Source: Bradyrhizobium arachidis (GTDB lineage: Bacteria; Pseudomonadota; Alphaproteobacteria; Rhizobiales; Xanthobacteraceae). From it: a DNA stretch of 64,000 nt. This document shows positions 1 to 20,150 of the stretch, in pieces; the stretch's first letter is position 1, and each line of letters opens with the position of its first letter. Below the pieces are notes generated by a model. It was not told the origin of the DNA, made no database searches, and worked only from the letters and a program-made list of their open reading frames with translations. The stretch lies in NCBI RefSeq assembly GCF_015291705.1, contig NZ_CP030050.1, forward strand, positions 8,742,001 through 8,806,000. Direction: 5' to 3'. The position numbers and the translations under genes are program-made.

Positions 1-639
1 GAACCGTGACCAGCAGTTAACGGCAATCCTGTCTACATCGTCCTGAAGGTCGTTTCGGGCAACGTGATGAGCAATCTGTAGCGTAATGGCTGGCACATAG
101 CGCCGAAGGACCGCCTCGGCGTCCCTCTTGGCCGGCGCGCGCTTGCTGTCTTGTCGCACCACCGAAGCGTCAGGCAGCGATGGCACGCATTGGTTCACTT
201 GAAGCACTCGGTCTTGCTGATCGTAAAGCACTTCCCACGGATAGTCGTCGGGGATGGGCAAGGTGATGTTGCACAGCGCAAGCTCAAAGTGGCCGCGTAC
301 ACCATCATTGCTTCGCCCGCGATAACGCTGGTTGACCGCTCGAATGGGCTGAGTAGCCCGCTGGCAGTCCCTTTCGTAGGTCTCCTTTGTTTGCTCGTAG
401 TCTCGCAGGAGGGCAGTCTCAGCATCTCTCCACTTCAAACTCAGATCAGCGAGGTAAATCTCCATCAGATCGCGTGCTTCAAGCGCCGCCGCGTACTTCG
501 CGTGGAAGGTGGTGTGTAGCTGCCGCGCTTGCGAGTTGAGCAAGGCCACACGATGGATTTCCGCTTCGTATGCCTTTGCCTGCAGTCGGTCCTCAGCAAA
601 ACCGCGTATCCACTGTGCTCGGGAGAGCGGGTCGGTAGG
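1..639 (-). CDS. restriction-endonuclease-like protein, downstream part (runs off left edge; frame-shifted from 593..922)
   Basis: Reading the minus strand from about 639 to position 1 gives an uninterrupted frame with normal coding character: a Glu/Ala/Arg-rich, probably coiled-coil stretch (around FAEDRLQAKAYEAEIHR), then a domain containing FELALCNITLPIPDDYPWEV. The layout (TM, coiled coil, then this domain with a YD...RVL pattern) recalls N-terminal parts of membrane-anchored proteins annotated as Mrr-type restriction endonucleases; that match is from memory and the catalytic part would lie off the window. No convincing ATG opens this frame. It continues the frame of 593..922 after a +1 shift, so the two were probably one gene. 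It could instead be a separate overlapping gene using GTG. The coding character is solid; the function is tentative. Confidence 0.5.
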
Positions 640-922
640 CGCTTGCGGCGGCCACGTAGTCGTCCAGGAGAGCGAAGGCGCGGCGAAATGCGTCTGGGTT
701 GGGTATGCCGACCACTCTGACGGGGTTCTCTGCGCGGTACGACTGGCCCCGCTCGTATTCCTGCTGGGCCACACGTTCGGCCCTCTTGCTGGCCAGAGCT
801 TCTCGCTGGTCAGCGACGGCTTTCGAAGCAGCACCCAGACCTCTGAATAGCCCTTGAAGGACCAGAAAGGCCCCGTAGCCCACCACGAGCAGCACCGCAC
901 CTGCGAGGATTAGATAGTTCAT
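593..922 (-). CDS. membrane-anchored N-terminal part of the restriction-endonuclease-like gene
   Basis: The 109-residue reading starts with one clear transmembrane helix (residues 3-25, LILAGAVLLVVGYGAFLVL) followed by a charged, Ala/Gln/Arg-rich helical region that ends abruptly at a TGA in a low-quality tail. The ATG at 922 has a GGGGGA Shine-Dalgarno-like tract just upstream and overlaps the stop of a small ORF as ATGA. Coding quality fades after residue 90, exactly where the next frame becomes convincing, so I infer one gene interrupted by a single-base indel or a sequencing error, or less likely a programmed +1 shift. Part of the tRNA-His element. Confidence 0.5.
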   Translation of the reverse strand: MNYLILAGAVLLVVGYGAFLVLQGLFRGLGAASKAVADQREALASKRAERVAQQEYERGQSYRAENPVRVVGIPNPDAFRRAFALLDDYVAAASAYRPALPSTVDTRFC

Positions 923-1101
923 TCCCCCGAGCTTCTCCCCAATAGCCGGAGGACCTCCGCCCGAGCATCGCCCTCCACCCGCTTCGTTATATTAACGCCA
1001 CATCCGGAACTTGCGACACTTTCGACCCGAAATCTAAGGTGACATACCGCCCCAAGACTTCTGGGAAGACCACCGCGGGCGTTTGGGCGAGCCGCCCCCA
1101 A
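919..1101 (-). CDS. small ORF, 60 residues, doubtful
   Basis: This basic 60-residue reading (RFRVESVASSGCGVN, then TKRVEGDARAEVLRLLG) ends in an ATGA overlap with the membrane-anchored gene downstream, which would fit translational coupling. I recognise no family, see no membrane segment and find only a weak ribosome-binding site. It may be chance reading of the leader of the next gene. Confidence 0.2.
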   Translation of the reverse strand: MGAARPNARGGLPRSLGAVCHLRFRVESVASSGCGVNITKRVEGDARAEVLRLLGRSSGE

Positions 1102-1407
1102 GAAGCTGAAGGAGACACAAGCATCTCTTAAGTCACCGCTGGGCCGAATGGGCCTACTCCAGTCATAGGGCGACGTAGGGCCAACGGAGAGGACCTCCCG
1201 TACTGCGACATGAACAATAATGGTCCCAGTGTACCTATGTGTCTCCCGCGTTCGTCTCTCTCCTCCTCTCCCCTGTATCCTCTGTCTATTCTCCTATAAT
1301 TATTCTTCCTCCTCCCCCTCCATGTTGTCCCCTAAGTCTCCTTGGTGTCCTCTGTGTGCTCCCCTGTATCTTGTTATTAACTGTGTGGTGTGTGGCCTTC
1401 TTCAGGC
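1102..1407. other. intergenic region with strong pyrimidine/purine strand skew and short repeats
   Basis: No gene is visible here. Between about 1240 and 1375 the plus strand is nearly all pyrimidine (TCTCTCCTCCTCTCCCC, TTCCTCCTCCCCCTCC), so a transcript from the minus strand would be G/A-rich with many GGAG/AGGA words. CTCCCCTGTAT occurs twice, at 1268-1278 and 1359-1369, each beside a TCCTCTGT word. It lies directly downstream of the polymerase-like gene. Function unknown. Confidence 0.5.
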
Positions 1408-2790
1408 TCAGGCCAGTTTTGTCTTCAATCTGGGGGTCGCCTTCTGCTGGTCTTGAAACCTCCTCCTCAGCCTCTCGGTGGCGATTTCGGCCTTTGAGAC
1501 TGGAACGATCAGGCTGTCGTGGACAACAAGACTTGGGGTTTGGTGTTCGCGCATCAAATTCAGCATGGTCGAGAACATCACCTCGCTCTCAAGCCACATC
1601 AGGTCGGCCCAGCTGTAAGTGCGGCCATTGAACGGCTCGCCCCAGCTCCTCAGCACAGGGTATTTCGTGAATACGGCCTTGGAGATGTCGGCGACCCGGT
1701 GTTCCCGCAGACTGGGATCATCTGCGAGCATGTCCTCCGGCCATCGCCTGATTGGCTTTGCGCTGCCGAACGTCCCGACGAACCACTGCTTCACCGCTCC
1801 TCGGTGCTCCACCCCAAGCCCCGGAAGTAGATAGGGATCCTCCGTGAGGTCCAGTTGGAGCCCATAGAGCGATAGGAAGATTGTGAGGTAGCTTCCGCTA
1901 ATGTCGATTTCTGCCACCGGCTCGCCATTTATCGTCATCTTCTGCCGACGTGTTGCGGACTGGGTTTGGTAATTTCCGGCGTGCTGGCTGTAGAGCCTGC
2001 CTCCCTTATTCCAGTGAAAGTCTGGATCATCACCGTTCTGGAAGATGCGGACGTAGCCTTGATGCACTCCGCCGCGCAGCGTGTGCTTGGCGAAGAACTC
2101 GTTCAGCTCGGAAATGGCCCGCTCCATCCCCTCCACCATTGGTGTTCGTTCGAACTCCATCGGCTTCCCGACAGGTTCAGTCGTGCGGTAGGACGTCTTG
2201 AGTTTACGCTTTCGCAGCTGAACGGGGTGCTTGGGAAGCTCATACTCAAATTCGAAGTGATCCAGCACAGCGGCTGGTGGCACACCATGCTCAGTGCAGA
2301 ACCTGAGCAATTCCGGTGTTGCACGGAAACGTGCAGCGTACTTCCCAGTGTCCTCGCGCTCCTCCGAGACCTTGTGTCCCGGTACGTGCTGCAAGAAGCC
2401 CAGTCCCTCAAGCCCGTTGTACAACTGATTGAAAGCGTGCCGCCCCACGGGAGCGCGAGTGAAGGAGGCTTTGTTCAAGGACTTGTAAACCCAGCAGCCC
2501 TCGTGCTCCTCTACTTCGAACGGACGCAAAAGGTCAGCCAGGAATGCTCCGGTAGCGTATTGGAGCTTGCCCGCGGTGTCCCTGCGTTTCCTTTCCCGCA
2601 ATCCGGCGTGGATCGTGTACTCCTCCACCATCGACGCGAGCTTCGCGACAAGGGCTTGGGCTTGCTCGGATGTTGGGTGTGCTCTTAGGGTGGCGTAGGT
2701 GGCTGCTTGTAGCTCTTCTCGATTGATCATTATCTGCCCGACAGACCCAAGGCGGATGTCACGCCTTTCCCCTGATACGATTGAATTCAT
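1408..2790 (-). CDS. protein with divergent family-A polymerase-like palm; putative replication protein of the element
   Basis: 460 residues from the first ATG. The C-terminal half has the landmarks of a family-A/T7-like polymerase palm in order: a GGRLY motif (263-267), INGEPVAEIDISGSYLTI (287-304) with the motif-A-type aspartate at 296, a motif-B/O-helix-like VKQWFVGTFG (333-342, Lys334), and VVHDSLIVPV (422-431), a motif-C-type His-Asp. The N-terminal half has a winged-helix-like segment (about 118-137, HAFNQLYNGLEGLGFL) and RATPELLRF (156-164). No exonuclease domain is visible. I recall similar uncharacterised proteins in mobile elements, but polymerase activity is inference. The first ATG overlaps the upstream gene by 32 bases; Met21 (ATG at 2730) is an alternative start just beyond that gene. 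It sits in the integrase operon. Confidence 0.75.
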   Translation of the reverse strand: MNSIVSGERRDIRLGSVGQIMINREELQAATYATLRAHPTSEQAQALVAKLASMVEEYTIHAGLRERKRRDTAGKLQYATGAFLADLLRPFEVEEHEGCWVYKSLNKASFTRAPVGRHAFNQLYNGLEGLGFLQHVPGHKVSEEREDTGKYAARFRATPELLRFCTEHGVPPAAVLDHFEFEYELPKHPVQLRKRKLKTSYRTTEPVGKPMEFERTPMVEGMERAISELNEFFAKHTLRGGVHQGYVRIFQNGDDPDFHWNKGGRLYSQHAGNYQTQSATRRQKMTINGEPVAEIDISGSYLTIFLSLYGLQLDLTEDPYLLPGLGVEHRGAVKQWFVGTFGSAKPIRRWPEDMLADDPSLREHRVADISKAVFTKYPVLRSWGEPFNGRTYSWADLMWLESEVMFSTMLNLMREHQTPSLVVHDSLIVPVSKAEIATERLRRRFQDQQKATPRLKTKLA

Positions 2791-3169
2791 CGATTTGGCG
2801 GACCAGCTCCTTCGTGCGCCTCGTCAGCAAGCTTCCTTGAGTGTAACCGGACGCCTCAATCATGCACGTGATGGCCGCCCGGCAAATCCGATCAAGCGCC
2901 TTCTCGTATTCGCTGCTGGGCTCTTCTTGCCAGCCGACCCGTTGTGACGCTCTATCCACCAACTCCATGGCGGGCATCTTCGGTTTGAGTGCTAAGGTTT
3001 CGAGGAAGGCGCGCAGGCTATCCACGGCTTGAACCCGGTAATGTCGATCAGGACTTCGCGAGCAACGCAGGAGATTTACATATAGATCACCGAGGTCTCT
3101 AACGACAGAGTACTCCTTGTTTGCCTCTAAGGTGAGAGCAACGACCTTTTCTAATTCTTCCTTATCCAT
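2759..3169 (-). CDS. conserved-looking hypothetical protein between integrase and polymerase-like gene
   Basis: 136 residues, soluble, predicted mostly helical, no signal peptide, membrane segment or motif I recognise. It starts MDKEELEKVVALTLEANK and ends in a basic segment, LLTRRTKELVRQ. The ATG lies 34 bases after the integrase stop, and its 3' end overlaps or abuts the polymerase-like gene, so the three are probably one transcript. The context suggests an accessory factor in excision, replication or regulation of the element; nothing in the sequence decides between these. Confidence 0.65.
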   Translation of the reverse strand: MDKEELEKVVALTLEANKEYSVVRDLGDLYVNLLRCSRSPDRHYRVQAVDSLRAFLETLALKPKMPAMELVDRASQRVGWQEEPSSEYEKALDRICRAAITCMIEASGYTQGSLLTRRTKELVRQIDEFNRIRGKA

Positions 3170-3203
3170 CGCATCAGCTCCGTCTGATCGTTTACTGGCC
3201 TGT

Positions 3204-4829
3204 TCAATCCAGCGAGTAGCGGGGAAACTTCTTGAGTGCCTCGGCCATGTCGGTCACGGTGGGTTGTCCGTACTTGCGACCTTCGGTGGCCGGCGTGTGA
3301 CCCGTTATCGCGTCGTGGACCTTCTCCGTGATCCCCACGGCCTCAGCGATGCGTTTGAACGTATGTCTCCAGCTATGGTTCGGACTAATTCCCGGATCGG
3401 TGATCCCCAACCCTCGCACCCATTCCCCGAGGTGTGCCCGCGCCGTGCCTGCTCGACTGCGTGTCGGCTTCAAGGGATCATTGCTTACGGGCTGGGGCGT
3501 GGCGTCATTGTAGAACAGAGCACCCTTTCCGACTGAATGCACCAATGCGAGGAAACCCTGCGCTATGAGGTGTTCGTGAAGCGGCACGACCCGTATCTTG
3601 CGGTTCTTCACTGTGCCGGCATCGGGCGTCAGTTTCATCACGTACATCCCCTGCCTGTCCTCAATGTCGGCGCCGCGCAACTGAGTGATTTCGCCGGGGC
3701 GGGCACCAGAGTAAGCGCAAAGCCAAGGCGTCCAACGTCGTGTCCTCTCGGTGGGCGTAGCCGGAGCTTCGTAGGCCAAGCTCGCCATCAGGATGGTGCG
3801 CGCCTCCTCGTCGGTGAAAGACCTGCCATGCTCCCGCGTCTGCGCTCTCCGCGGCACGTCCACCTTGACCTCGGCGAACGGGTTCTTGCGAATGCGCTTG
3901 TGTTCCTTGGCCCAGTTGAACACTCGCCGAGACGCGGAGAGCCAGATTTCACGGACGGTCTGTGCAGTCCTGTCTGCGGTGATCAAGCCGTGTATCCACG
4001 AGCGCGCGGCTTCCTCGGCAATACCATCGGCACCCACCTCCGCAAATTCACGCTGCATTTCGAGAAACACGGCGCGCCAGCGCTGCACTGTCGTATCCGC
4101 TGGTTTGGTGGCCTTCACAAAGGCATCGAACAGATCCCAGCAGCTTACGTCTGCGCGGCGTGTGTGGCCGTTCGTAAATATCGGAAACGCGTCGGGCGTG
4201 TCGTCTCGGGAATAGTCACCATTGGCGCGCTTCTCCAGCAGCGAGAACGCAGGCAAGAGATTGTCGCTGACAGCATCCACGAAGAGCGCATGCGCCGTAG
4301 GGTTCAGGGCGATGCCTTCGCTGGCAAGAAACGTCGCCACCCGCGCCTGCTCGGCGACCCGTGGCCGCACCGCCTCGCGAACGTTGGGTTCCTTGGCCCA
4401 ATCCCAGTTGGGATCGGACCTTTGATCCTCCTCGTAGCTGTCAGGGGCCTCGGGACGGATCACTTCCCACACGAACAGGTCGCTCAATTCCCGCCAGACC
4501 TTCGCCGGTCCGGGATCATTCTCGTACTGCGCGACAAACCAGCTGTACCAGCGGCCAGCGAGCGCGATTGCGTTTATGCGAGTAAGAGGCTGACCCTCGC
4601 CATTCCTCTGAGCCCGAAGCGTTGCAATGCGTGTTTCGATTTCAGCTGCCCACTCTCCGAGACGCGCTTTTGCCTCGGGGCGAGGGGTGCCTGCAGGGAG
4701 CTTGAGGTGAGCCTCTCGCCTGACACCATAGAGCCGCTGGTACTCCTCGCGGACATCCGCAGGAATGCCTTTGCGGGCAAACCATCGACCATCAGCAGCA
4801 CGACTTAACGCGACCATCCGCAATGCCAT
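3204..4829 (-). CDS. tyrosine-type site-specific integrase of the tRNA-His element
   Basis: 541 residues. The N-terminus (RWFARKGIPADVREEYQRLY) resembles the DUF6538-type domain of phage and island integrases; a SAM-like core-binding domain follows (about 215-310); the catalytic domain carries the expected residues: Arg in CAYSGARPGEITQLRG, a Lys in the beta-hairpin after it, HSWRHTF (box II, HxxR), ITGHTP, and Tyr in EGRKYGQP. It would insert and excise the element by recombination at the 3' end of tRNA-His, only 84 bases upstream of its start. ATG at 4829 is preceded by AAAAGG at a usable distance. No frameshift or missing catalytic residue is seen, so it is probably functional. Confidence 0.93.
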   Translation of the reverse strand: MALRMVALSRAADGRWFARKGIPADVREEYQRLYGVRREAHLKLPAGTPRPEAKARLGEWAAEIETRIATLRAQRNGEGQPLTRINAIALAGRWYSWFVAQYENDPGPAKVWRELSDLFVWEVIRPEAPDSYEEDQRSDPNWDWAKEPNVREAVRPRVAEQARVATFLASEGIALNPTAHALFVDAVSDNLLPAFSLLEKRANGDYSRDDTPDAFPIFTNGHTRRADVSCWDLFDAFVKATKPADTTVQRWRAVFLEMQREFAEVGADGIAEEAARSWIHGLITADRTAQTVREIWLSASRRVFNWAKEHKRIRKNPFAEVKVDVPRRAQTREHGRSFTDEEARTILMASLAYEAPATPTERTRRWTPWLCAYSGARPGEITQLRGADIEDRQGMYVMKLTPDAGTVKNRKIRVVPLHEHLIAQGFLALVHSVGKGALFYNDATPQPVSNDPLKPTRSRAGTARAHLGEWVRGLGITDPGISPNHSWRHTFKRIAEAVGITEKVHDAITGHTPATEGRKYGQPTVTDMAEALKKFPRYSLD

Positions 4830-4913
4830 TTGTAGCGCCTTTTGTATTTTATAGGGCGCAAAAACGTCTGGTCTATCAGTAAGATGCCGGGATTGCGGGA
4901 AGATTTGCTACGT

Positions 4914-4940
4914 TGGTACAGTTGGGTGGGCTCGAACCAC
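4914..4940 (-). other. probable attachment-site end (3' part of tRNA-His)
   Basis: Integrases of this kind usually recombine within the T-arm and 3' end of a tRNA gene. Here the complete tRNA, including encoded CCA, stops at the boundary with the integrase-bearing DNA. I found no second copy of the tRNA 3' end within 1-4900, so the partner repeat should lie left of the window. The exact core is inferred. Confidence 0.55.
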
Positions 4941-4990
4941 CGACCTCCTGTTCCACAGACAGGCGCTCTAACCAACTGAGCTACAACTGC
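4914..4990 (-). tRNA. tRNA-His (anticodon GTG)
   Basis: The minus strand folds into a full cloverleaf: acceptor GCAGTTG pairing with CAACTGT, D-arm GCTCAGTTGGTTAGAGC, anticodon stem CCTGT/ACAGG around loop CTGTGGA (anticodon GTG), T-arm with GGTTCGAGCC, and an encoded CCA. The discriminator is A73, the first pair is G1-U72 and the base before G1 is T, so the G-1 typical of bacterial tRNA-His is absent. This is the arrangement known from many alphaproteobacteria, whose HisRS is adapted to it. Confidence 0.97.
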
Positions 4991-5135
4991 ATCCTTGCGA
5001 GCCGCGCCTTGGGACGCCCTGGGAGGGCCGGTTACCGAGGGGGCTGGACGGGGCGGAAACTAGGTGCAACGGGGGTTTTTGGCAAGGCCGCAAAACCCGA
5101 TAATTCCCGCCTTAAGCAACGTTATTTCCAGAACA

Positions 5136-5161
5136 AAACCCGGGCCTCGCGGCCCGGGTTT
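5136..5161 (-). terminator. intrinsic terminator downstream of phasin gene
   Basis: A perfect 11-bp GC-rich stem (AAACCCGGGCC / GGCCCGGGTTT) with a four-base loop; on the minus strand it is followed by TTTTG. It lies 27 bases after the phasin stop codon. Confidence 0.85.
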
Positions 5162-5188
5162 CCTAGAGCGTGCGATCCGCCGTTTTGA

Positions 5189-5623
5189 TCAGGCGGCGGG
5201 CTTGTAGAGCTTCGAGGCGCTGGCCTTGATCGGCTCGGCGGTCTCGTTGGCGATGCGCTGGGTCAGCTCGACCAGCTCCTTGGCCTGGGCCTGGAAGGTC
5301 TCGAGCTGGGTGCGGGCGTGGCCGGTCCACAGCGTGAACGCATCGGCGGGGTTCTTGGCGGCGAGCAGCTCCTGGGCGAAGTCCAGCGAGGCCGAAGAGT
5401 TGGCCTTCATGAACTCGACCAGCTTGGCGGTGTACTCGCTCGCGCCCTTGCTGGCGGTGGTGAACACGGCCTCGACGGTGCCGTTGTGGGTCTCGGCGGC
5501 ATCCTTGAACTTGGCGTAGTTCTCGCGGGCCTGCGACACGCCCTTCTCGGCGAACGCACGCATCTGCTCGGGGACCTCGAACGGAATGATCGAGGCAGAA
5601 AACGGATCAGTCGCACCTGTCAT
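5189..5623 (-). CDS. phasin family protein
   Basis: 144 residues, almost wholly alpha-helical, with the phasin_2-type core (ARENYAKFKDAAETHNGTVE, then SLDFAQELLAAKNPADAF and a C-terminal amphipathic helix rich in Ala/Gln/Glu). Phasins coat polyhydroxybutyrate granules and influence their size and number. The length is normal for the family. It has its own terminator and a promoter-like region with an inverted repeat upstream. A second phasin-like gene lies about 460 bases upstream on the same strand. Confidence 0.9.
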   Translation of the reverse strand: MTGATDPFSASIIPFEVPEQMRAFAEKGVSQARENYAKFKDAAETHNGTVEAVFTTASKGASEYTAKLVEFMKANSSASLDFAQELLAAKNPADAFTLWTGHARTQLETFQAQAKELVELTQRIANETAEPIKASASKLYKPAA

Positions 5624-16079: not shown

Positions 16080-16666
16080 CGTGCCGGCGGCAGGCCGAGA
16101 AAAGCCTCGGCCTCGCCGATCCAGCGGCGGACGGCCGCATGACGGCCGAGATCGAAGCCGCCTTCATGCGCAACGCGGGTATAGGCGAGCAACGAGACGT
16201 CGGCGAGCGACATTGCCTCACCGGCGAAGAAGCGGCTGCCGGAAAGATGCTGCTCCATGCGGTCGAGTGCCGCATAGCCGCGCTTGACCTTTTCAGGGTC
16301 GAGCTCGGAGGCAGCCTTGCCGAGATAGACGATGAGGAAGCGGCACACCGCGATGTAGGGCTCGTGACTGTACTGCTCCCAGAACAGCCATTCGTCCATC
16401 TTGGCCGCCGTGAAGACCTCGCGCGGGATCAGCGCGCTGTCGCGGGCGAGGTAGCGGATGATGGCGTTGGACTGCGCCAGCGTGCGGCCGTCGTCGAAGG
16501 CGACGGTCGGCACCTGGCCGGCGCCGTTCATCGCCAGAAATTGCGGCGTGCGCGTCTCGCCTTTGCGGGTGTCGATCTCGATCCACTGATAGGGCACCGC
16601 GAGCTTGTCGCAGACCCACTTCACCTTCAGACAATTGCCGGAATTGCTGTCGCCGTAGATCTTCAT
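16076..16666 (-). CDS. glutathione S-transferase family protein
   Basis: 196 residues from ATG at 16666; the reading to 16720 adds 18 atypical residues. The N-terminal thioredoxin-like domain shows MKIYGDSNSGNCLKVKW, GQVPTVAFDDG (cis-Pro) and LAQSNAIIRYLA; the helical C-terminal domain has FFAGEAMSLADVSLLAYT. It would conjugate glutathione to electrophiles or act as a related reductase. The beginning SNSGNC suggests a Ser or Cys at the catalytic position. Two further GST genes lie at 33233 and 41166. Confidence 0.92.
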   Translation of the reverse strand: MKIYGDSNSGNCLKVKWVCDKLAVPYQWIEIDTRKGETRTPQFLAMNGAGQVPTVAFDDGRTLAQSNAIIRYLARDSALIPREVFTAAKMDEWLFWEQYSHEPYIAVCRFLIVYLGKAASELDPEKVKRGYAALDRMEQHLSGSRFFAGEAMSLADVSLLAYTRVAHEGGFDLGRHAAVRRWIGEAEAFLGLPPAR

Positions 16667-16741
16667 CGCTGCCGCCCCATTTTGGAACGACAGAGCATCA
16701 GGACAAGGAGAGCCTGTCAACCGCGGCGCAGCGAGGCCGTG

Positions 16742-17632
16742 TCAGAACTTGTAGCCAACGCCGAGGCGCGCATTGTTCAGCGTCACCGACGTGTTCATGA
16801 CGGGCGAGAACCGGACGTACTCGTACTCGATGCGGGCGAAGAGCCCATCCCAGATGCAGTATTCGAGGCCGAGGCCGGCGGTCCAGCCGACCGCGAAGGT
16901 GTTGGTCCGATGCTGGCCCTGCGTACCCGATTGCGACGGAACAGGTACCCACGTCGTTCCGATCGTGGTGTTCTGGTTGCCGAAGATGTCCGTTGTCGTC
17001 ACGTCCGTGCGCAACCGCACGTCGCTCGTCACCGTGCGGGTGATGTCCATCCGTCCGACGGCAGCGCCAAAGAACGCGTAGGGCATGAAGGGTCCGCCGT
17101 CCCAACCGGCGCGGCCGCGCAGCGTGATCATGTCCTTGACCTGGGCCGTGGCGGTGCCGGTGAGCGAGACGGCATAATTGTGGGTGATGCCGGCCGGCCG
17201 TACCTCGCCGGCCGGGTTGACGATCACGAGCGCGTTGGAGCCGGTCGATCCCGTCGAGAGGTTGCCGAAATAGCTGTAGGTGCCTTCGAGACTGAGAATG
17301 GCATCGTACCACTGCCAATTGCGGCCGATGAAGCCGCCGTAATTGACGCCTTGCGTGTTGGCCTTTTGCAGCAGCGACCACGTTGACGTCGGCCCCTGCA
17401 GCACACTGTCGCGGAAGATGTAGTTGGTCAGGCCGACGACGCTCTGGCCGAAATCGGTCGCGTCGGCCGTGTAGCCGGCGGTGCCGCCGACATAGAAGCC
17501 ATCCCAATTGTGGCTCGTCCTCGACAAACCGTCGGTGACGCTGCCGCGCAGGATCGGCAGATCCGGCATGTCGGCCGCGTGCGCGGCAGATACCGTCCCC
17601 AACATCGCCGCCGCCAACAAAAGCCCACGCAT
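16742..17632 (-). CDS. outer-membrane beta-barrel protein
   Basis: 296 residues with a cleavable signal peptide (MRGLLLAAAMLGTVSAAHA, cut before ADMP). The mature part starts with WDGFYVGGTAGYT and ends with an aromatic residue in NNARLGVGYKF, both marks of the Omp25/Omp31-like eight-stranded barrels abundant in Rhizobiales. Alternating strands (IGRNWQWYDAILSLEGTYSY, LGLEYCIWDGLFARIEYEYV) support this. Its role is probably structural or porin-like. A second barrel gene lies upstream on the same strand, with a terminator between. Confidence 0.88.
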   Translation of the reverse strand: MRGLLLAAAMLGTVSAAHAADMPDLPILRGSVTDGLSRTSHNWDGFYVGGTAGYTADATDFGQSVVGLTNYIFRDSVLQGPTSTWSLLQKANTQGVNYGGFIGRNWQWYDAILSLEGTYSYFGNLSTGSTGSNALVIVNPAGEVRPAGITHNYAVSLTGTATAQVKDMITLRGRAGWDGGPFMPYAFFGAAVGRMDITRTVTSDVRLRTDVTTTDIFGNQNTTIGTTWVPVPSQSGTQGQHRTNTFAVGWTAGLGLEYCIWDGLFARIEYEYVRFSPVMNTSVTLNNARLGVGYKF

Positions 17633-17746
17633 CGCAACGCTCCAAATAAACTCGAACTTTCGCCATGATCATGGCTCGTTAACCTTAACCAATGGTTGCG
17701 CTGGAGCTTTTCGTCGCCGCGAAGCCATGAAAAATACGCAAAGCAA

Positions 17747-18860: not shown

Positions 18861-20150
18861 TTAACGCGCGTGCTGCGGCAGTTTTGGCAGGAACACGGCA
18901 AGCAGGCCGATCGCCGGCAGGTACGCGCAGACCTGATAGACGAACGCGATCGAGGTGTGGTCGGCGAGCTTGCCGAGCACGGCGGCGCCGAGGCCGCCGA
19001 TGCCGAAGGCGACGCCGAAGAACACGCCGGAGATCATGCCGAAGCGGTGCGGCACCAGCTCCTGCGCGAACACGATGATCGACGACGTCGTCGAGGAGAT
19101 GATGAGGCCGATGATCACTGACAGCACCGCGCTGGTGTAGAGCCCGGCATAGGGCAGCGCCAGCGTGAACGGCAACGCGCCGAGGATCGAGATCCAGATC
19201 ACGATCTTGCGGCCGAAGCGATCGCCCAGCGGACCGCCGAAGAAGGCGCCGACCGCATTCGCTGCGAGGAAGATGAAGAGATAGATCTGGGCGGCCTGCG
19301 TCGACACGCCGAAACGATCGATCAGGTAGAAGATGTAGTAGCTCGACAGGCTTGAGACATAGAGCTGCTTCGAGAACAGCAGCGCCACCAGCACGAGCAG
19401 TGCCACCGCGACGCGGCGCGAGCTCGGGCCGCCTGGCTGGGTGTGGGCCGGCGCAGCTTTCTTCGCCGTGATCTGCGGCGCGTACCAGCGGCCGATGCGC
19501 CAGAGAATGACAATGGCGAGAAACGCGATCGACGAGAACCAGGCGATGCTGCCCTGCCCGAACGGCACCACGATCAGCGCGGCCAGCACCGGCCCCATCG
19601 AGGTGCCGAAGCTGCCGCCGAGCTGAAACACCGATTGCGCAAAGCCGTAGCGGCCGCCCGAGGCGAGCCGCGCGATGCGCGCCGATTCCGGGTGAAACAC
19701 CGCCGAGCCGAGACCGACCAGCGCGGCGGCGACGAGGATGACGAGATATTGGTGGGCGGCGCTGAGCAGCAGCAGGCCGAAGAAGGTCGAAGCCATGCCG
19801 ATCGCCAGTGAATAAGGCTGCGCCTTCTTGTCAGTGTAATGCCCGACCACCGGCTGCAGCAGCGAGGCCGTGAACTGGAACGCCAGCGTGATCATGCCGA
19901 TCTGCGCGAAGTCGAGCGCATAGGTGTCCTTCAGGATCGGATACACCGAGGCGATCAGCGACTGCATGGTGTCGTTGAGGAAGTGCGAGAAGCTGATGCC
20001 GGCGAGCACAACATAGGCCGGCCCCGCCGCCTTGGCGACGGCGGGCGCGACATCGCTGACGACGACGGGCTCGGTCAGCGTTTCCTTGGAGACGACGACA
20101 GGCTTGTTCAATGGAGCATCCCGGCAGGCGCGGCGAACCGCCGCATCCAC
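18861..20150 (-). CDS. MFS exporter, fosmidomycin-resistance (Fsr) type
   Basis: 429 residues from a GTG at 20150; a TTG 13 codons later (MNKPVVV) is an alternative. About twelve membrane helices are visible. HFLNDTMQSLIASVYPILKD in helix 1 and VFHPESARIARLASGGRYG are signatures of the Fsr branch of the major facilitator superfamily, and GGPLGDRFGRK is the loop motif repeated in the second half. It would export a small molecule by proton antiport; the substrate is unknown. It is followed by no other gene on its strand before the barrel gene. Confidence 0.88.
   Translation of the reverse strand: MDAAVRRACRDAPLNKPVVVSKETLTEPVVVSDVAPAVAKAAGPAYVVLAGISFSHFLNDTMQSLIASVYPILKDTYALDFAQIGMITLAFQFTASLLQPVVGHYTDKKAQPYSLAIGMASTFFGLLLLSAAHQYLVILVAAALVGLGSAVFHPESARIARLASGGRYGFAQSVFQLGGSFGTSMGPVLAALIVVPFGQGSIAWFSSIAFLAIVILWRIGRWYAPQITAKKAAPAHTQPGGPSSRRVAVALLVLVALLFSKQLYVSSLSSYYIFYLIDRFGVSTQAAQIYLFIFLAANAVGAFFGGPLGDRFGRKIVIWISILGALPFTLALPYAGLYTSAVLSVIIGLIISSTTSSIIVFAQELVPHRFGMISGVFFGVAFGIGGLGAAVLGKLADHTSIAFVYQVCAYLPAIGLLAVFLPKLPQHAR

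Follow-up and report, generated by a model that had tools for sequence, protein, structure and literature searches.

TV-Pols, defined in 2008, were proposed to combine primase and polymerase activity, have lambda-type integrase, resolvase or transposase genes as neighbours, and were placed near the root of the family-A DNA polymerases and the T7-like RNA polymerases (PMC2579912). The divPolA2 proteins of Barbavirus and related phages, described in 2024, are found beside a regular polymerase; that publication suggests that they may act as repair or RNA polymerases and names TV-Pol once, in its background (PMC11348598). Primer-independent synthesis has been proven for CcPol of SCCmec elements, which primes DNA when bound to MP, and the authors of the same paper knew in 2020 of no assayed TV-Pol besides the distant CcPol-MP (PMC7581432). 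Here we analyse a stretch of 64,000 nucleotides from Bradyrhizobium arachidis (contig NZ_CP030050.1, positions 8,742,001 to 8,806,000; hereafter the window), in which a TV-Pol-type polymerase gene follows an integrase gene in a small island at a tRNA. The kind of polymerase is already known; this particular member and its element are new.

Fold, conserved residues and described relatives

Structure modelling and the fold matches of the model assign the protein to the family-A polymerases, with the palm, fingers and thumb required of superfamily A, and we regard its identity as a polymerase of this fold as very nearly certain. Conserved residues were read from a 33-row alignment that covers Bradyrhizobium, other alphaproteobacteria, SAR92/SAR116, a Sphingomonas plasmid, three phages and a Paracoccus/Rhodobacter group. 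The gene and its parts are as follows (each of the four active-site features is present in 33/33 rows).

1408..2790, minus strand: TV-Pol-type family-A-like polymerase gene, a 460-codon open reading frame (ORF)
2320..2583, minus strand: N-terminal winged-helix-like region, residues ~70-157
1411..2238, minus strand: thumb/palm/fingers polymerase core, residues ~185-460
1996..1998, minus strand: Arg265 in the GGRLY stretch, the hairpin Arg of the TV-Pol definition (PMC2579912)
1903..1905, minus strand: Asp296, metal ligand of motif A
1789..1803, minus strand: R330xxxK334, fingers motif
1516..1521, minus strand: His424-Asp425, motif C

Invariant in all rows are N230, R265, Q275, R282, E294, D296, Y320, R330, K334, L397, H424 and D425. 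D318 is kept in 32 of the 33 (Asn in one) and is presumably the conserved fingers Asp of PMC2579912. Two positions depart from bacterial DNA polymerase I (PolA). Five residues past D296, where PolA has Glu, the rows carry Tyr (20; Tyr301 in the window), His (12) or Phe (1), and the residue after the His-Asp of motif C, again Glu in PolA, is Ser in 31 rows and Gly in two; among PolA sequences checked by regular expression, DYSQIE was present in 2/4 and Glu after His-Asp in 3/4. The thumb of TV-Pols consists of two antiparallel helices; in the model one helix (217-234) precedes the hairpin, and the predicted local distance difference test score is 45-71 across most of residues 191-220.

The protein search returned 435 homologues at E <= 1e-3 from 7190 scored candidates; among the matches listed (120 of 435), those named by organism are mostly Bradyrhizobium, and homologue P0113 bears the UniRef name 'DNA-directed DNA polym...'. 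The sole PHROG match is phrog_4756 (function unknown, E 1e-21). Because of these homologues, the PHROG match and the invariant residues, the family stands beyond chance. Pfam, NCBIfam and PADLOC gave no match for the ORF at E <= 1, a PDB sequence search yielded nothing meaningful from the single protein and nothing from the profile, and a viral contig scan queried with the window protein had no match. In alignment A1, 31 of the 34 other proteins begin near Met21 and three are longer; since homologues begin there, we prefer Met21 over the 460-codon start, and the true start is probably the ATG at 2728-2730, which would give a protein of ~440 residues.

An earlier note on this DNA had proposed a family-A or T7-like palm with three motifs in canonical order, a winged-helix-like N-terminus and no 3'-5' exonuclease, and this outline holds. 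GGRLY, INGEPVAEIDISGS, VKQWFVGTFG and VVHDSLIVPV occur once each, at residues 263, 287, 333 and 422 and in the expected order; the palm is borne out by the predicted fold and by the invariant motif residues. No exonuclease was seen: the reading frame is short, its match to Pol I spans residues ~185-460, and a Pfam scan of the polymerase gave no sign of a Pol I-type nuclease, either fused or linked; the Mrr-type gene of the island is a different kind of nuclease. The structure model lends weak support to the winged helix.

With the TV-Pols the protein shares a minimal family-A core, the absolutely conserved beta-hairpin Arg, the two metal Asp residues, the fingers Asp with RxxxK, and the lack of a Pol I-type nuclease. 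Common to both are also the residence in mobile elements, alphaproteobacterial ones included, the integrase or resolvase neighbours and, for a subset of TV-Pols, an extra N-terminal domain. That domain is all-helical in the TV-Pols of 2008, whereas it looks like a winged helix in our model. A D5-type helicase accompanies many TV-Pols but was not seen here; it is not required of the integrase-linked subset. Direct comparison with a candidate member, MAP_030 of Ma-LMM01, was not significant (hidden Markov model E 17 and 37; hhalign P 0.005 with alignment A2 and 0.16 with A1), this gene having been picked through its IS605 neighbour and its motifs and being unnamed in PMC2579912. The structure search retrieved the Zamilon replication protein with E 0.014 and probability 0.97. 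This protein presumably corresponds to Sputnik V13.

Profile comparison makes the homology to divPolA2 firm: AUR84708, the member modelled in PMC11348598, matches at E 6e-8 with a profile built without phage rows and at 0.027 with the narrow A1. Like the window protein it has a palm, no exonuclease and its own N-terminal domain, in 430 residues; its motif C reads Phe-Asp-Glu, in contrast to His-Asp-Ser/Gly in our rows. The divPolA2 genes belong to phages with variable neighbourhoods and a regular polymerase alongside, whereas the window gene sits in a chromosomal integrase-resolvase island. The homology gives the phage enzyme a mobile-element context. A1 also matches three further phage proteins, all from PHROG 4756, at 8e-14 to 1.4e-10, and the best viral structure matches include a protein of Barba31A (Barbavirus). 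Relatives in Aeromonas, Vibrio and Klebsiella phages are annotated as hypothetical proteins (L018:5524-6789, L019:5515-6792, L021:5608-6891, L122:25469-26761); three of these four belong to PHROG 4756 and the fourth is the modelled divPolA2. Matches to the S4-7 phage protein occur in 239 phage records, with Rheinheimera making up 114.

CcPol-MP and PolA-SSB of SCC elements resemble our case in being family-A polymerases of mobile elements with a site-specific recombinase nearby (PMC7581432, PMC10061031). CcPol is close to Pol I, retains part of the exonuclease domain and depends on MP, a partner with an oligonucleotide-binding (OB) fold; its operon also includes a helicase. In PolA-SSB primases the ORF of the OB-fold partner sits between polymerase and helicase. 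Neither the partner nor the helicase was seen at the window's island, where the adjacent ORF of 136 residues is not conserved; helicases were sought among 11 ORFs of this island and nine of three relatives. PolA of the host (L025) has the same fold and motif order but about twice the length; the window protein differs from it by His-Asp-Ser instead of His-Asp-Glu, the missing motif A Glu and the absence of a visible exonuclease (profile P 0.007 with A2, 0.06 with A1). To the earlier note's remark on similar uncharacterised proteins, none of them described biochemically as far as it knew, must be added that the kind is in print as TV-Pol and divPolA2 and that the distant CcPol has been shown to prime DNA. 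For the branch studied here, no assay turned up in the open-licence literature, in which no search was aimed at assays.

Island ends, gene order and exchange of the integrase

The polymerase lies downstream of a tyrosine integrase transcribed in the same direction, which agrees with the integrase operon of a mobile element read by the earlier note. The integrase ORF matches a PHROG integrase at 1.3e-19 and Pfam Phage_integrase at 2.5e-4, the latter under Pfam's own cut-off.

3204..4829, minus strand: tyrosine integrase, 541 residues, upstream of the polymerase
4914..4990, minus strand: tRNA-His(gtg), probable integration target, adjoining the integrase ORF
4914..4930, no strand: 17-bp direct repeat formed by the last 17 bases of the tRNA, island end on the tRNA side

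The second copy of the repeat lies 9.6 kb from the first, at genome position 8737294, which is 4.7 kb to the left of the window. Direct repeats were sought for the tRNAs of the fetched loci and found in L006, L084, L089, L094 and L102, with several partial ones in L117. Repeats of 16-20 bp at tRNA 3' ends enclose 7.8 kb in L084, 7.5 kb in L089, 6.7 kb in L094 and, in L006, a more distant locus, 12.9 kb, so that the five elements with repeats measure 6.7-12.9 kb. The repeat of L102 covers the greater part of a second tRNA-Glu gene and may not mark the edge of an island. The remaining tRNA-bearing loci had no direct repeat within the ~7 kb fetched on either side, perhaps because just that much was fetched. 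An empty site was not shown by the joined-flank query, which matched 265/265 genomes; among the matches listed, those in other genomes fell on the tRNA side only and the left flank occurred solely in its own genome. This flank may itself be another island.

Within the genus the polymerase is patchy (matches in 52 of 265 genomes); a narrower profile found it in 23 of 391 genomes drawn from the family. Forty of the listed places with matches in the genus were fetched. The following counts out of 17 refer to the window and the 16 nearest loci (L082-L097); several of L082-L089 appear to be the same places as L002-L005, L011 and L013. An integrase lies upstream on the same strand in all 17, fused to the polymerase in L096 and fragmented in L090; the two genes overlap by 4 bp in L083, L084 and L091, and gaps are at most 537 bp where the integrase is unbroken. 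Downstream and on the opposite strand, a resolvase follows at 0.5-6.3 kb in 14/17 loci (cut by the contig end in L096); it was not found in L083, L091 and L093, the first and last of which have less than 1.6 kb of contig left. A tRNA gene (His, Arg or Glu) stands just upstream of the integrase in 11/17. L103-L121 follow a second arrangement, separated by gene order and not by a tree: in 14/19 a resolvase precedes the polymerase on its own strand, and in 10/19 an integrase lies downstream on the opposite strand. In seven of these loci (L105, L106, L107, L110, L112, L114, L117) a gene of ~220-280 residues with conserved Cys and His directly precedes the polymerase. It could be the N-terminal domain in its stand-alone form, as described in 2008 (PMC2579912); Pfam gave no match for the one such gene scanned.

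The order of the two genes is better kept than the integrase itself. Across 20 pairs, the distances of integrase and polymerase correlate with r 0.22, a value reached by 135 of 5000 permutations (L090 was left out, its integrase being in fragments). L084 shares 77% identity with the window in its polymerase and 21% in its integrase, whereas in L088 the values are 35% and 76%. A single complete fusion was seen, L096:5219-8359(+), where one in-frame ORF of 1046 residues holds a complete integrase (6-596) and a complete polymerase (594-1038), 1/17 loci. With this one fusion and nearly uncorrelated distances, the integrase was rejected as an obligate partner of the polymerase; gene order that persists while the integrase is swapped suggests shared expression rather than fixed protein contact. 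A search for long homologues gave at least six matches among 7998 scored candidates, of which P0245 is the sole further integrase-polymerase fusion; it joins a truncated integrase to the palm part alone and is likely a chimera. The other five of these matches (P0043, P0074, P0242, P0243, P0244) carry an N-terminal extension of 150-220 residues that looks ParB-like by eye; the two scanned had no Pfam match.

Proposed role of the polymerase

Because the fold and the catalytic residues are intact, the gene belongs to a mobile island of conserved gene order and TV-Pol and CcPol provide published precedent, we infer catalytic activity and priming and favour, with moderate confidence, a primase-polymerase that serves island replication, in line with the replication or priming enzyme inferred in the earlier note. 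The integrase would excise the small tRNA-targeted island as a circle; the winged-helix-like N-terminus may guide the polymerase to a site on the element, for which the putatively origin-like non-coding region past its own gene is the best candidate; and the polymerase, acting on the opened circle, would start a DNA strand and/or extend one. The helicase and replicase of the host would complete the copying of the circle, the element-borne serine resolvase would convert multimers into monomers, and the integrase would put the circle back at the tRNA. As the elements are compact (6.7-12.9 kb) and many reside in isolates of a soil genus, the 2008 prediction of a primase-polymerase is directly testable. 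A bolder and distinctly less probable version is a helicase-free, self-priming replicon, in which the N-terminus would bind the origin past the gene, the core would start DNA alone, and integrase, polymerase, site and resolvase would suffice; that phages use the same enzyme as divPolA2, a part of this joint reading, is equally tentative.

The polymerase might instead fill gaps or restore strands around integration, excision or single-stranded uptake, a repair or end-processing enzyme and not a replication starter. The close linkage of its gene to that of the integrase, with 4-bp overlaps and a single fusion, would fit, as would the small size without visible exonuclease or helicase and the coexistence of a regular polymerase with the divPolA2 relatives, for which PMC11348598 suggests repair or RNA polymerase functions. 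The integrase, however, is exchanged freely (L084, L088; r 0.22), which argues against a specific physical contact between the two. Tyrosine recombinases, moreover, leave no gaps for filling, and we consider this role possible but doubtful.

A T7-like transcription enzyme or primer-making RNA primase of the element is somewhat less probable still. An aromatic residue (Tyr, His or Phe) occupies the position of the PolA Glu in each of the 33 rows and could by itself keep ribonucleotides out, a role that Tyr has in family-B polymerases. The N-terminal model contains no pointer to promoter recognition, which excludes little.

Defence-like cargo adjoins the gene (an Mrr-type nuclease and a RES/Xre toxin-antitoxin), and PMC7693054 reports such a phenotype for an element primase-polymerase, Ppol of Thermus ICETh2, proposed to copy or mark incoming single-stranded DNA against competitors. 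The cargo varies between the elements compared, whereas integrase, polymerase and mostly the resolvase are constant, and no PADLOC model matched at E <= 1; an interference function is accordingly improbable. A dead remnant is very improbable: broken relatives do exist, L090 having integrase fragments, L095 a split polymerase and L098 and L100 short pieces, but the catalytic residues are invariant in 33/33 rows, the ORF in the window is unbroken, and a protein with 90% identity to it occurs elsewhere.

Cargo and the non-coding region past the gene

The remaining features of the island in the window are:

2759..3169, minus strand: ORF of 136 residues between integrase and polymerase, no match in relatives
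923..1407, minus strand: non-coding region downstream of the polymerase, putatively origin-like, with a purine-rich tract (78%, 150 bp) followed by AGGTACACTGGGACC
593..922, minus strand: ORF of 109 residues with a hydrophobic start, downstream of the polymerase
1..900, minus strand: beginning of a gene that runs past the window edge, start codon uncertain, with an Mrr_cat nuclease domain in its continuation in L022

The 136-residue ORF was rejected as a conserved partner: neither loci L002-L021 (E <= 0.01) nor the ORFs of at least 45 residues in the integrase-polymerase gaps of near relatives contained a match to it. By eye, the start of the 109-residue ORF may be a membrane anchor; L082 carries DNA matching this ORF with 80% identity over 330 bases. 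Beyond the window the island encodes a RES toxin, an Xre-type antitoxin, the serine resolvase, the Mrr-type nuclease domain, and ORFs of 191 and 237 residues without Pfam match. In L022 the toxin-antitoxin and nuclease cargo of this island occupies 16485-17638 and 19359-20000. None of the ORFs scanned in this island was recognisable as a phage structural gene.

The non-coding region, which is conserved past the polymerase in L082-L096, may be origin-like. In the window and in L082 and L084-L086, a purine-rich tract (70-81% over 150 bp) precedes AGGTACAMTGGRAMC; L083 keeps the AGGTACAMTGGRAMC motif with a weaker tract (63% purine). Structured RNA was considered for the region past the gene and rejected, covariation terms ranging from -4.7 to +6.8 (negative values being support) with none clear. 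Fold tests gave z of -1.3, -2.7, -1.5 and -1.9 in four near-relative sets and -3.9 in six rows of the second arrangement, and Rfam at E <= 1 reported the tRNA alone in window positions 1-5200. The region of other relatives contains an AT-rich stretch, in which GC falls to 18% over 50 bp, and a 23-bp motif, CCATAWCGTGGAACGAATGTTTG. Allowing up to three mismatches, no copy of this motif was found in 10 of 17 genomes, the window's own included; across the 17 there are eight copies, seven within 140 bp past a polymerase match, and none of the reversed control. One copy with a single mismatch, at G255:C1:8146240-8146262, lies apart from the polymerase gene of that genome and is perhaps a remnant element.
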